This document shows, one piece after another, positions 2,638 to 28,946 of a stretch of 64,000 nucleotides of DNA (the first letter of the stretch is position 1; every line of letters begins with the position of its first letter). Both the position numbers and the translations under genes were made by a program. The notes beneath the pieces were generated by a model that saw only the letters and a program-made list of their open reading frames with translations, did not search any database and was not told the DNA's origin. Source of the stretch: an uncultured Bacteroidales bacterium (lineage in GTDB: Bacteria; Bacteroidota; Bacteroidia; Bacteroidales; UBA932). The DNA is taken from positions 1 to 64,000 of the forward strand of contig ONJB01000005.1 in the NCBI GenBank assembly GCA_900318015.1, written 5' to 3'.

Positions 2638-2686
2638 GAGATTTCTCGACTGCGCTCGAAATGACAAAATGGGCGCTCGAAATGAC
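2638..2686. repeat. REP-like palindromic unit plus a partial second copy
   Basis: A unit at 2638-2665 starts GAGAT and ends ATGAC, with a CTCGA/TCGA(A) stem around a short loop. An identical 3' half (GCGCTCGAAATGAC) is repeated at 2673-2686. The same GAGAT/ATGAC ends bound the copies at 19499-19524, 26214-26276 and 28687-28745. This copy lies only 13 bases beyond the stop codon of the dipeptidyl peptidase gene. Confidence 0.8.
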
Positions 2687-18337: not shown

Positions 18338-19503
18338 AGCGTGCCCCTCCTCCGGATATGCAGGTCGATGGCGCCTTCCGGGAAGTGTGCCCGATCCGCG
18401 CAGACCAGGGCGAGATATCCTCCGCCGCCGGCCCCCGGCATCTTCCAGGCCAGAACCCCGTCCATGGACCCGTACTGTTCGATGTACTCCGGCACGCCGG
18501 GCTGGATCATGGCCGGGAACATGGCTACCTGCGCCTCGAAGGAGGCCTTATATGCGGCGGCGAAACCTTCGATGTCACGGGCGAGGATGGCGTTCCAACA
18601 ATCATCGGCAGCCTTCGCCAGCGCTTCCACCTTGGGCCGGGTGATGTCTTTTCCCTCTACCACGGAGCAACCCGGGCGGCGCGGGAACATCGGGACCATG
18701 CACAGATGGTCTTCGAGCCAGGAAAGGACTTCCTCGTCATGGCAGGACTCGATCTTGTCCGGCCAGAAACGGTTGTCATACCAGTGCCGCACGAGGCCCG
18801 GCATACAGATGCCGATGGAATCCTGGGCCCCGGACACGATGCCGTCGGAGCGCTCCGGATCGTTCTCGAAGCAGAAAACGAGCTTCGCGAGGGTTTCCGG
18901 ATCCATGTTCGGCAGCTGGAAAGGCCAGATCTTCCGGATCATGTTCCGGGTGGACGTGGACAGGCCGCAGCGCTCCTGGATCTCGAAGGTGGGTTCCAGG
19001 GAGATGGTCAGGGCCCATCCGGGCGCGAAGCAGGACACATACGGCTGGTCGATCCACGTGCCGGCGAGGTCCAGCCGGACGGGAATCTGGCAGGGAGTCC
19101 GTTTCAGCGCCGTGCTGGAGCGGGCCTGCAATCCCTCCTGCGGCGTGCGCTGGAGGACGATATACTCGATGCCGCGTTCCTCGCAAAGCCGGCGCTTTTC
19201 CTCGTTTCCGCCGTCTTCGTTGACCACGAAGACGTCCGGCTTCACGATATCCAGCGTGGGCACGAAATCCATGATTCCGTCGCCGGCGTTGATGTAGGCG
19301 TCCTTCACGTAACGGATCGCCTTCACCATGAACAGCCGCTCGTCCTCGCTGTAGATGGTCTTATGATGCTTATAGTGCAGGATGGTCTCGTCCGAGCCGA
19401 TTCCCACATACAGGTCGCCATACTGCGCCGCCTGCCGGAAAAACTCCACGTGGCCGCTGTGCAGGAGGTCGTAGCACCCCGATACGAATACTTTCTTTGT
19501 CAT
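18334..19503 (-). CDS. Cytidylyltransferase-like domain fused to a GHMP-kinase-like domain
   Basis: The product is 389 residues. Residues 1-135 form a nucleotidyltransferase of the HxGH family ([16 protein letters not shown] and, later, the RSSTALK motif), as in HldE, TagD and PCT enzymes. From about residue 140 a GHMP-kinase-like domain begins with [14 protein letters not shown], continues with [13 protein letters not shown] and ends with [15 protein letters not shown] (motif 3). The usual phosphate-binding GxGLGSSA motif 2 is not recognisable; only a shortened GLSTSTR lies in the gap. Between gmd and fcl it may make an activated sugar from a free or 1-phosphate sugar, an analogue of Fkp fucose salvage or of heptose activation; the substrate is unknown. 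The start codon belongs to a palindromic repeat. Confidence 0.82.
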
Positions 19504-19524
19504 TTCGAGCTTGTCGAGAAATCT
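19499..19524. repeat. REP-like unit bridging two coupled genes
   Basis: A single palindromic unit fills the gap between gmd and the downstream fusion gene. Read on the minus strand, it begins in the gmd stop codon (TAG at 19525-19523), forms a CTCGA/TCGA stem and ends ATGAC, whose ATG (19503-19501) is the start codon of the next gene. It shares ends with the copies at 2638, 26214 and 28687. Confidence 0.85.
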
Positions 19525-20815
19525 ACTTTACGATGCCTTTTTCCAAAAACTCCGCGAGATTCATCCGCACTTTCTCCGCGGCGCCCTCGCCGGCCACCTT
19601 CGCCATGTCATGGTCCACCATCAGCTTCACGAGCTGCTCGAAGGTGGTTTTCTGCGGATTCCAGCCCAGTTTGGCGCGCGCCTTGGTCGGGTCTCCCCAG
19701 AGGTTCACCACGTCCGTGGGCCGGTAGAAATCCGGACTGACTTCCACCAGCACGCGGCCGGTGGCCTTGTCGATGCCTTTTTCATCGGCCCCTTCCCCGA
19801 TGAATTCGAGTTCGATGCCGGCCTCGCGGAAAGCCAGGAGACAGAATTCCCGGACGCTGTGCTGCACGCCGGTGGCGATGACGAAGTCTTCCGCCTTCTT
19901 CTGCTGGAGCATGAGCCACATGCATTCGACATAGTCTTTGGCGTATCCCCAGTCACGGAGGCTGGAGAGATTCCCCAGATACAGCTTGTCCTGCTTGCCC
20001 TGGGCGATACGGGCGGCGGCCAGCGTGATCTTGCGCGTGACGAATGTCTCGCCGCGGCGCTCGGATTCGTGGTTGAAGAGAATGCCCGAGCAGCAGTACA
20101 TGCCATAGGCCTCGCGGTATTCCTTGACGATCCAGTAACCGTACAACTTGGCGACCGCATAGGGGCTGTAGGGATGGAACGGCGTGTTCTCGTTCTGGGG
20201 CACTTCCTCCACCTTGCCGTACAGTTCCGAGGTCGACGCCTGGTAGATCCGGCAGGTCCCTGCGAGCCCGCACTGGCGCACGGCCTCCAGGACGCGCAGG
20301 ACGCCGGTCGCGTCGACATTCGCCGTATATTCCGGCGAGTCGAAGCTCACCTGGACATGGCTCTGCGCCGCCAGGTTGTAGATTTCGTCCGGCCGCACCT
20401 TGCCGATCACCTGGACGAGGCTCATGGAATCGCCCATGTCCGCATAATGCAGGTGGAAATGGGGACGGCCTTCCAGATGCGCGATGCGCTCGCGGAAATC
20501 CACCGAACTGCGCCGGATGACGCCATGGACATCATATCCCTTCTCCAGCAGGAACTCCGACAGATACGAACCGTCCTGGCCTGCCACACCCGTGATGAGC
20601 GCCGTCTTCATCGAATGTTGCCTTTCTTTTGTCAAGTTCACACCGAGCTCGGCCTCGATTCGCTTGATACTTTGTCCGCCGATGCCCACTTTTCCGGCCA
20701 GCCATCGGCTCACGACCGTCTCGTCCTTGCCGATCCGCACGGCCAATTCCCGCTGGGAAATGCCTTTCCGGATGAGTGTAGCCTTGATTCTGTTGATAAT
20801 CTCATAATCTACCAT
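19523..20815 (-). CDS. gmd: GDP-mannose 4,6-dehydratase with an in-frame N-terminal XRE domain
   Basis: The frame encodes 430 residues. Residues 1-68 are a complete XRE helix-turn-helix ([20 protein letters not shown]...). From residue 69 ([19 protein letters not shown]) a full-length Gmd of 362 residues follows, with [16 protein letters not shown] and [10 protein letters not shown] (Tyr-xxx-Lys) active-site motifs. There is no stop codon or frame change between the parts. Gmd makes GDP-4-keto-6-deoxymannose for Fcl. The start at 20815 is chosen because the promoter at 20821-20850 begins transcription essentially at this ATG; an internal start at 20611 with a weak AAAGG site could also yield Gmd alone. 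Either way the transcript contains the DNA-binding domain. Confidence 0.9.
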
Positions 20816-25487: not shown

Positions 25488-26804
25488 CTAGTCCCGCTTG
25501 AAGATGTCGCGCGTATAGACTTTGTCGGCGACGTCGTCGAGGGCGGCGTCGTAGCGGTTGGCGATGATGGCGTGGGACTGGGCCTTGAAGGCGGCCAGGT
25601 CGTTCACAACCCGGGAGCCGAAGAAGGTGATGCCGTCCTGCAGCGTAGGTTCGTACACGATGACCTTCGCACCCTTCGCCTTGATGCGCTTCATGATGCC
25701 CTGGATGGCGGACTGGCGGAAGTTATCGGAGCCCGTCTTCATCGTGAGGCGGTATACGCCCACGACGACTTCCTTCTCCTTCGCGGAGTCGAAGGCGCTG
25801 GACGCGGTGTAGTAACCGGCCTTTTCCAGCACACGGTCCGCGATGTAGTCCTTGCGGGTGCGGTTGGAGTCCACGATGGCCTTGATGAGGTTCTCCGGCA
25901 CGTCGTTGAAGTTCGCCAGGAGCTGCTTCGTGTCCTTCGGCAGGCAGTAGCCGCCATACCCGAAACTCGGGTTGTTATAGTGCGCGCCGATGCGGGGATC
26001 CAGGCATACGCCGTCGATAATCGCCTGGGTGTCAAGCCCTTTCATTTCCGCATAGGTATCCAGTTCGTTGAAATAGGATACCCGCAGCGCCAGGTATGTG
26101 TTCGCAAACAGCTTCACGGCCTCCGCTTCGGTGGATCCCATGAACAACACCGGGACATCCTCCTTGAGGGCGCCTTCCGCAATGATATGGGCAAAGGTAT
26201 GCGCAGCTTCGGCGAGATTGCCGGTCGCAGCCGGCAATGACGAACGCCCGTCATGCCCGACCTGATCGGGCATCTCATCATACCCGACGATAATCCGGGA
26301 AGGATACAGGTTGTCGTAGAGGGCCTTGGATTCGCGGAGGAACTCCGGCGCGAAGAGGATCTTCGGGACGACGACTTTCATCGTACCGTCCGCCTGGCGC
26401 TCACGGTAGGAGAACTTCTCCCGGACATTCCGGGTATAGCCCACGGGAATCGTGGACTTGATCACCATCACGGCATCCGGATTCACCTCCAGGACCAGGT
26501 CGATGACCTCTTCCACGTGCGAGGTGTCAAAGAAGTTCTTCTTGGGATCGTAGTTCGTAGGGGTGGCGATGACCACATAGTCAGCCCCGCGATAGGCCTC
26601 TCGGCCGTCCAGCGTGGCCCGCAGGTCCAGGGGCTTCTCCGCCAGGTATTTCTCCAGGAACTCGTCCGCGATGGGGCTCTGCTTGGCGTTGATTTTCTCC
26701 ACCTTCTCGGGTATCACGTCCACAGCCACGACCTCGTGCTTCTGCGCGAGCAGCGTGGCAATCGATAGACCCACATAGCCGGTTCCGGCGACTGCGATTT
26801 TCAT
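25488..26804 (-). CDS. ugd: UDP-glucose 6-dehydrogenase carrying an in-frame palindromic-element insertion
   Basis: The 438-residue enzyme oxidises UDP-glucose twice to UDP-glucuronate with NAD+. Motifs: [17 protein letters not shown] (NAD binding), [10 protein letters not shown], the substrate region [20 protein letters not shown] and [15 protein letters not shown] with the catalytic Cys. Residues 177-197 come from a 63-base palindromic repeat (26214-26276) lying between the conserved [10 protein letters not shown] strand and the [13 protein letters not shown] helix. The frame and all catalytic motifs survive, and the element sits where family members normally have a short surface loop. It lies within the operon between a second nucleotide-sugar dehydrogenase and rhaM. 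Confidence 0.93.
26214..26276. repeat. REPIN-like double palindrome inside the ugd coding region
   Basis: Two hairpin units face each other. Unit one pairs TGCCGG with CCGGCA; unit two pairs GCCCGA with TCGGGC. Each unit begins GAGAT at the outer edge and ends ATGAC at the inner edge, and the inner edges themselves form ATGACG/CGTCAT. The length is exactly 63 bases, adding 21 codons without a stop. Confidence 0.9.
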
Positions 26805-28166: not shown

Positions 28167-28946
28167 CTATAAAATGCCGTGGTAGGTCCGCTGGACCTCC
28201 TCGTAGGAGGCCAGATTGCCGATATCGTAGCGTTTGCCGGGCATTTCCCACGCATGGACCGGAGTCTGCGCGGAAAGCCAGGCGATGAAACTGCCGGGGG
28301 CATCCACGCCGCAGCCGCTGTCGATTCCCACCTTCACGAGCGGTACGTCGCTCCTGCGGTAGAAATAGAACGGCGGACAGCACCAATGGCTCTTGGGGCA
28401 GGCCGGTTTCTCTTCCATCTCCAGAATCAGGTCGTTCCCGTCGACGGTGGCGACACCGGTCTTGTGGAGCTTTTCCTCCGACGGCTCATAGTACCGCATG
28501 ATGCAGGAAGTTCCTTTCTCCCGGGCATATTCCAGGAAACGGACCAGGCTGAAATCCAGCACGTTATCTCCGGCAATCACCAGCAGGTCATCGTCCAGTC
28601 CCAGTGTGTCGATGGCGAACTGGATGTCGCGAACGGCCCCGAGCCGGGTCTCGTTCGACGACGTGCCGTCGTCCAGGACGGTGATAGATGCCCGATCCGG
28701 TCGGGCATGACGACCGACGTCATTCCCGGCTTGACCGGGAATCTCTTTCGCCCAGTCTTCGAAGATCGGGGCGAACTTATGGTTGGAGATGACCACATAC
28801 TGGTCGACCAGGCCGGCGGTGTCGATATCATCGATAAGCCAGTCCAGGATGGTCTTCTCCCCTACCTTCAGGAGGGGTTTCGGGAAGTTCTCGGTAAGCG
28901 GGTAGAGCCGCGTGGCATAGCCGGCGGCGAGGATCAGGCATTTCAT
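28167..28946 (-). CDS. Sugar-1-phosphate nucleotidyltransferase with in-frame palindromic insertion
   Basis: The product is 259 residues. N-terminal MKCLILAAGYATRLYPLTEN and FPKPLLKVGEKTI are the nucleotide-binding signature; LLVIAGDNVLDF gives the metal-binding Asp, and LEMEEKPACPKSHW the sugar-binding part. The group transfers NMP to a sugar-1-phosphate. Coupled by a 4-base overlap to the galacturonokinase-like gene, it plausibly makes UDP-galacturonate or a similar nucleotide sugar from that kinase's product. Residues 68-87 derive from a REPIN-like element (28687-28745) between EDWAKE and the TVLDDGT strand. Homologues in memory run directly from one to the other. The reading frame is kept. 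Confidence 0.88.
   Translation of the reverse strand: MKCLILAAGYATRLYPLTENFPKPLLKVGEKTILDWLIDDIDTAGLVDQYVVISNHKFAPIFEDWAKEIPGQAGNDVGRHARPDRASITVLDDGTSSNETRLGAVRDIQFAIDTLGLDDDLLVIAGDNVLDFSLVRFLEYAREKGTSCIMRYYEPSEEKLHKTGVATVDGNDLILEMEEKPACPKSHWCCPPFYFYRRSDVPLVKVGIDSGCGVDAPGSFIAWLSAQTPVHAWEMPGKRYDIGNLASYEEVQRTYHGIL
28687..28745. repeat. REPIN-like double palindrome inside the nucleotidyltransferase gene
   Basis: It has the same design as the ugd copy: two face-to-face hairpins with stems GCCCGA/TCGGGC and TCCCGG/CCGGGA, outer GAGAT (one end reads TAGAT) and inner ATGACG/CGTCAT edges. About 60 bases are added, in frame. The first unit is read in the same codon phase as in ugd, giving EIPGQAGND here against EMPDQVGHD there. 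Confidence 0.9.

Follow-up and report, generated by a model that had tools for sequence, protein, structure and literature searches.

The closest described relatives of the repeat analyzed here are the CGTC-tagged REPs, which, in the sections of Di Nocera et al. 2013 (PMC3733652) drawn on here, combine the tag with stems of 8 to 9 bp beginning with AT, loops of 4 to 5 bases, and an arrangement mainly in head-to-head pairs. According to those sections, they occur in five phyla including the Bacteroidetes, they are assigned no dedicated transposase, and their unpaired tail is CCA in most but not all cases. The same sections equate the Rickettsia elements RPE-4 and RPE-6 with CGTC-4 and CGTC-1, respectively, equate the Neisseria repeat dRS3 with CGTC-1, and describe in-frame CGTC copies inside Rickettsia conorii genes. 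They also include a case of two Xanthomonas species with differing REPs at about one recB site, so that recurrence at the same site has a small precedent. REPINs (compare PMC3116915) likewise consist of two facing REP units and are dispersed and non-autonomous. Among the Bacteroidetes, subclasses 2.4 and 2.6 of TnpA-REP are described in the relevant part of PMC6006769 as Y1 genes with their own flanking palindromes.

The stretch of DNA that we analyzed, referred to as the window, comprises 64,000 nucleotides of a draft genome of an uncultured Bacteroidales bacterium. A first-pass annotation had placed a double hairpin with face-to-face units at 26214..26276, inside the gene for UDP-glucose dehydrogenase, and both the coordinates and the architecture were confirmed by the sequence. 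The relevant features of the window are as follows.

25488..26804, minus strand: ugd, UDP-glucose dehydrogenase, 438 aa, with the element as residues 177-197
26214..26276: CGTC-tagged head-to-head REP pair, 63 bases, in frame in ugd
26214..26241, minus strand: unit 1, 28 nt, stem type TGCCGG (model match, E 4.4e-8)
26242..26249: spacer of 8 bases separating the two heads
26250..26276, plus strand: unit 2, 27 nt, stem type GCCCGA (model match, E 1.9e-8)
28167..28946, minus strand: nucleotidyltransferase gene carrying the second element (NTP_transferase, PF00483, by Pfam)
28685..28745: further in-frame head-to-head pair belonging to this family, 2.4 kb from the ugd element
2638..2665, minus strand: single unit of the related TTTCGAG stem type (model match, E 5.8e-4)

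Unit 1 reads GTCATTGCCGGCTGCGACCGGCAATCTC on the minus strand, and unit 2 reads GTCATGCCCGACCTGATCGGGCATCTC. Folded as DNA, the 63-base element reaches -19.6 kcal/mol (z -4.7), which none of 200 shuffles equaled; with flanks included and on the opposite strand, the fold has a z score of -2.3 and was equaled by 4 of 200 shuffles. The ugd element agrees with the superfamily of CGTC-tagged REPs as published. With families CGTC-1 to -4, as characterized in the sections of PMC3733652 on them, it shares the CGTC tag, an 8-bp stem starting with AT, the head-to-head pairing, and the occurrence of copies within genes, and with family 2 it shares a 5-base loop. The tail differs, being CCA there and CTC here. 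The earlier statement that no well-described case exists in the Bacteroidetes was too strong, as CGTC repeats are reported from this phylum in the same source.

The reading frame runs through residues 177-197 of Ugd without a stop, as had been annotated. Matches to the three UDPG_MGDP_dh Pfam domains all exceed the cutoff, and the motif GGYCLPKDT is present, in agreement with the view that the catalytic motifs are intact. The figure of 21 added codons proved too high. Between RIIVG and EAEAVKLF, the window protein has 51 residues, whereas plain orthologues from its clade have 34, which puts the net gain at about 17 codons. The extra residues are missing from close orthologues and from aligned solved homologues alike. 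An AlphaFold2 model built from 40 sequences (mean pLDDT 72.6, pTM 0.58, weak in the middle of the protein) predicts residues 177-197 as coil, preceded by a strand at 171-174 and followed by a helix at 197-211, with pLDDT below 50 at residues 180-192, and thereby supports the proposed position in a loop between strand and helix. Comparison with the nearest plain loops resolved neither a target duplication nor an exact footprint for the window's element; these loops (L105 and L107) were set aside as empty sites, being too diverged for a footprint. We take the stems of the element to resemble those of Neisseria dRS3.

The element belongs to a dispersed family. The end pattern GTCAT-N16..20-ATCTC matches the genome 107 times, versus 2 times for a reversed control, and some of these matches are not hairpins. 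A covariance model with an 8-pair stem, built from 22 seed units and showing covariation, was applied to the 3.2 Mb of the genome, where 150 of 4,048 first-look candidates were scored, and returned 117 unit matches at an E value of ≤0.05; the genome thus does hold further copies. After one partial match was dropped, the remaining 116 full-length units resolved into 83 elements, namely, 50 single units, 32 head-to-head pairs, and 1 tail-to-tail pair, so that the head-to-head arrangement dominates among the dimers. Among the 109 units with flanks, 86 are 27 nt long and 23 are 28 nt long, GTC is preceded by C in 95 and by T in 12, and the tail is CT followed by C in 65. GTC itself is present in all 109, GTCAT having been part of the seed pattern. 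The most frequent unit sequence, GTCATTCCCGGCTTGACCGGGAATCT, occurs in 24 copies. The first two of the eight stem pairs are invariant in 22/22 seeds, mostly fixed by the seed pattern, and the rest covary; conservation of the ends is therefore partly a matter of choice, since most seeds were selected on exact ends. The earlier observation that the stems vary yet still pair holds (covariation score of 0.318 in the 22-unit alignment versus 0.117 in shuffles). A degenerate unit of the TTTCGAG type (GTCATTTCGAGCTTGTCGAGAAATCTA) also lies at 19499-19525 of the window, absent from the model-search matches.

The element had been called REPIN-like, and a search for a RAYT-type gene had been suggested. 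One explanation of the family is a classical REPIN, in which a REP pair owes its mobility to a dedicated RAYT that is itself bordered by copies of these REPs. The head-to-head pairs agree with this, and Y1 genes are indeed present: PF01797 detected two in the window genome, where a protein query gave seven matches, and it matched in 46 of the 61 genomes of the genus. The tag, however, is CGTC rather than the GTAG (or GTGG) of REPINs, and linkage to Y1 genes is irregular. A hairpin scan of six Y1 regions of the window genome, blind to the TTTCGAG type, detected no CGTC unit; on C21, a TTTCGAG-type unit (83509-83536) and the Y1 gene are about 1.5 kb apart. Across the genus, regular-expression matches number 12 in 92 Y1 loci (73 of them distinct), or 0.04 per kb, some of them chance matches, versus 34 in 55 ugd loci, or 0.15 per kb. 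Inspection by eye left only 6 of the 73 distinct Y1 loci in which a unit no more than about 1.5 kb away looks genuine. In two of these (L084 and L086), a unit lies to one side of the Y1 frame at a distance of about 75 bases, and in three (L073, L303, and L332) the units lie farther from the gene. The sixth, L328 (G048:C263), has a Y1 frame at 1489-2439 with CTGAG-type units on both sides, a cluster at 1340-1460 (about 80 bases away) and a unit at 2731-2759 (about 290 bases away). The low proportion of loci and the low density together argue against a general linkage of units to Y1 genes. For the CGTC superfamily, the cited sections of PMC3733652 name no established transposase; in the present family, L328 is the locus where a Y1 gene is bracketed by units, of the related CTGAG type.

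Two of the Y1 genes of the window genome deserve mention. About 2.5 kb past the window, at G000:C51:66498-67361, lies a RAYT-like Y1 gene, with no adjoining CGTC units in the stretch read. The Y1 gene at L002 (G000:C92) has a palindrome of its own in two copies on either side (768-857 and 1846-1937), GTACAGGTCC...GGGACC, whose pattern matches 8 times genome-wide versus once for a control. Its palindromes differ from the CGTC units, and L002 is on this evidence a REPtron of another family, like the TnpA-REP genes of subclasses 2.4 and 2.6 described in the cited part of PMC6006769.

According to the covariance model, units are present in 39 of the 61 genomes of the genus. At most 115 candidates were scored per genome, under stricter filters, so the high unit counts are lower bounds. 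Bare end-pattern counts for the same genomes were dropped, the matches in several genomes being nonpalindromic. Unit count and Y1 gene count are correlated (Spearman 0.61 over 61 related genomes, uncorrected for kinship), and a Y1 match was found in 32/32 genomes with at least 5 units versus 20/29 of the others, as a REPIN would lead one to expect. An independent-pairs test found too few pairs, on a tree whose rows mix whole ORFs and 325-residue pieces; given this and the relatedness of the genomes, the correlation is a lead only. Overall, what stands of the original description is a dispersed palindrome tolerated in frame, in a genome that contains Y1 genes; the strict REPIN, with units regularly flanking its transposase gene, is not supported, and we regard this explanation as unlikely.

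Copies of the family lie in many genes. Flanks were read for 78 of the 83 elements, the other 5 lying on contigs C91, C95, C96, and C101. Frame was called by a codon-usage score trained on 33 window ORFs, which was correct in 218 of 272 training pieces. By this measure, 32 of the 78 elements are in frame without a stop, in 28 distinct ORFs, and 4 more (C34, C65, and two in C86) have matching best frames on either side with internal stops. In 21 of the 28 ORFs, above-cutoff Pfam matches span or bracket an element by our tally. The decorated genes encode FtsK, MurB, SufE, superoxide dismutase, a UvrA, tRNA pseudouridine synthase, a FabA-like protein, homocysteine methyltransferase, UDP-GlcNAc 2-epimerase, and a DegT aminotransferase, among others, together with the window's Ugd and NTP_transferase. 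A sigma-54 regulator gene with two elements is within the 21; in a glycosyltransferase with two elements, one of the two is spanned or bracketed. The Pfam scan gave no useful match for L190, L192, and L009 and partial, subthreshold, or one-sided matches only for L008, L022/L023, L166, and L181. Compared with a solved structure, superoxide dismutase has extra residues where its element sits. MurB, by contrast, aligns to a solved homologue without gaps across the element, and not every in-gene copy is therefore a net insertion. Nine of the 15 in-frame head-to-head pairs have lengths that are not a multiple of 3, which implies that small flank changes accompany insertion or that the bounds are off by 1 to 2 bases. 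The habit of in-frame insertion in many protein genes is shared with Rickettsia RPE-4 and RPE-6, as far as the relevant part of PMC3733652 describes them. The phylum is another one, and the likeness drawn here concerns this habit. Several hosts of in-frame elements on C51, C54, and C92 appear to be genes for surface polysaccharides (Ugd, NTP_transferase, DegT aminotransferase, UDP-GlcNAc 2-epimerase, a two-element epimerase, and a two-element GT4).

To follow the Ugd loop through relatives, we searched the 61 genomes of the genus, which yielded 28 full-length Ugd orthologues including that of the window, a sample unselected for inserts. In a search of 300 genomes, loci whose matches broke near residues 177-181 were added along with others; the larger set is thus enriched for inserts, because such loci were chosen. 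Loop sequences were obtained from most loci, all but L116, L129, L133, L254, and L259. The tree set comprises 103 rows, 92 from genus genomes and 11 from close named records; four pairs of rows are identical in DNA, leaving 99 distinct loops. All 11 named records bear a Bacteroidales, Bacteroidia, or Bacteroidaceae label; a ruminant sample is given for 7, and 3 have the same DNA as genus genomes. Counting as hairpins only loops with GTCAT, ATCT, and at least 7 nested pairs, we found them in 14 of the 103 rows (13 of the 99 distinct loops) and in 5 of the 28 unselected orthologues, versus 0 of 614 neighboring pieces of equal length. Two looser scorings were rejected: a version allowing one mismatch matched 32 of 412 controls, and labels assigned by eye (30/103 decorated, at least 16 changes or 23 by type, and 8/28 unselected) included the uncertain types palB, palD, palE, and palF.

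On a gene tree made without the loop, presence of the hairpin requires at least 10 changes; resolution of this tree is weak, with 28 of its 95 inner branches starred. The hairpins belong to about six stem types, and the window's type of pair occurs at separate placements (L033; L034 with L200; and L041). Comparison of the plain L110 with the decorated L122 reveals a clean gain of 84 bases, in which a host CTC doubles as the element end and no duplication is visible. A regular-expression scan of 55 ugd loci located in-gene elements in 5, every one in the same loop, and more in the flanks. As far as these positions indicate, the ugd gene itself is no target hot spot, and the loop is its permissive part. 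In L122 and L205, which are identical in DNA, one palindrome seems to be nested in another (CHSER-CPELVEG-RSEES), which looks like a later insertion into an earlier element. L037 and L123/L203 carry larger in-frame palindromes in this loop that are unrelated to CGTC units (fold z scores of -5.6, -4.1, and -3.1).

Repeated occupancy of one loop could also mean that the insert is selected by the host, as a peptide or mRNA hairpin useful in Ugd. The composition of the single units may be read in the same way, 13 of the 17 in-frame single units being in phase 0 and yielding Gly/Asp-rich peptides. However, the loop peptides in Ugd are of many unrelated kinds, most of the loops read have none, the model shows this loop as disordered, and the elements are spread over 28 ORFs, all of which makes host selection quite improbable. 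Ordinary drift in loop length with a palindrome arising by chance, suggested by the long nonpalindromic loops of distant Ugd proteins in the same region, is refuted by the genomic copies that the units match and by the empty control pieces, and an assembly or binning artefact, conceivable for a draft of 106 contigs with 2.45% contamination whose titled relatives are mostly metagenome bins, has an equally negligible chance, given that inserts of this kind recur across many separate assemblies and that the loops which could be read preserve the frame.

We consider it likely that mobile CGTC REP hairpins have landed widely in these genomes, that selection has kept in-frame copies where they are tolerated, that the Ugd loop has been hit repeatedly, and that the residues it gained are passengers. 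The ugd element, a head-to-head pair of CGTC-tagged REPs, would then be a mobile hairpin, small and non-autonomous, and the approximately 83 elements of the genome would have been spread by an enzyme, probably one acting on single-stranded hairpins. Most landings within genes would have been lost, the survivors keeping the frame at places where added residues do no harm. The loop between strand 171-174 and helix 197-211 would be such a permissive place, hit in species after species by differing stem types, and the inserted residues most likely have no function in the enzyme. More tentatively, and in our view with the odds against it, the CGTC REPs may still be moving in this genus, mobilized mostly in trans by a set of RAYT-like Y1 proteins, with the Ugd loop recording landings filtered only by the tolerance of the protein.

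A search of the open-access literature recognized no description of such inserts in Ugd. Beyond the first-pass annotation, the comparison shows one Ugd loop colonized again and again by differing hairpin repeats. The recB case in the cited section of PMC3733652 concerns two Xanthomonas species, whereas the Ugd loop shows about six stem types and a minimum of 10 changes on the tree; many landings in a single protein loop likewise set this genus apart from the CGTC superfamily as described. These observations extend in-frame REP insertion from Rickettsia, the best-known case, to ruminant-gut Bacteroidales and to genes that include ftsK and murB. The Ugd loop offers a natural record of where repeats land without breaking a protein, with many landings that can be compared, and makes it testable what moves CGTC REPs and whether proteins put the palindromes within them to use or carry them as passengers. 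If Y1 proteins do mobilize these repeats in trans, the Ugd loop would amount to a natural saturation experiment.
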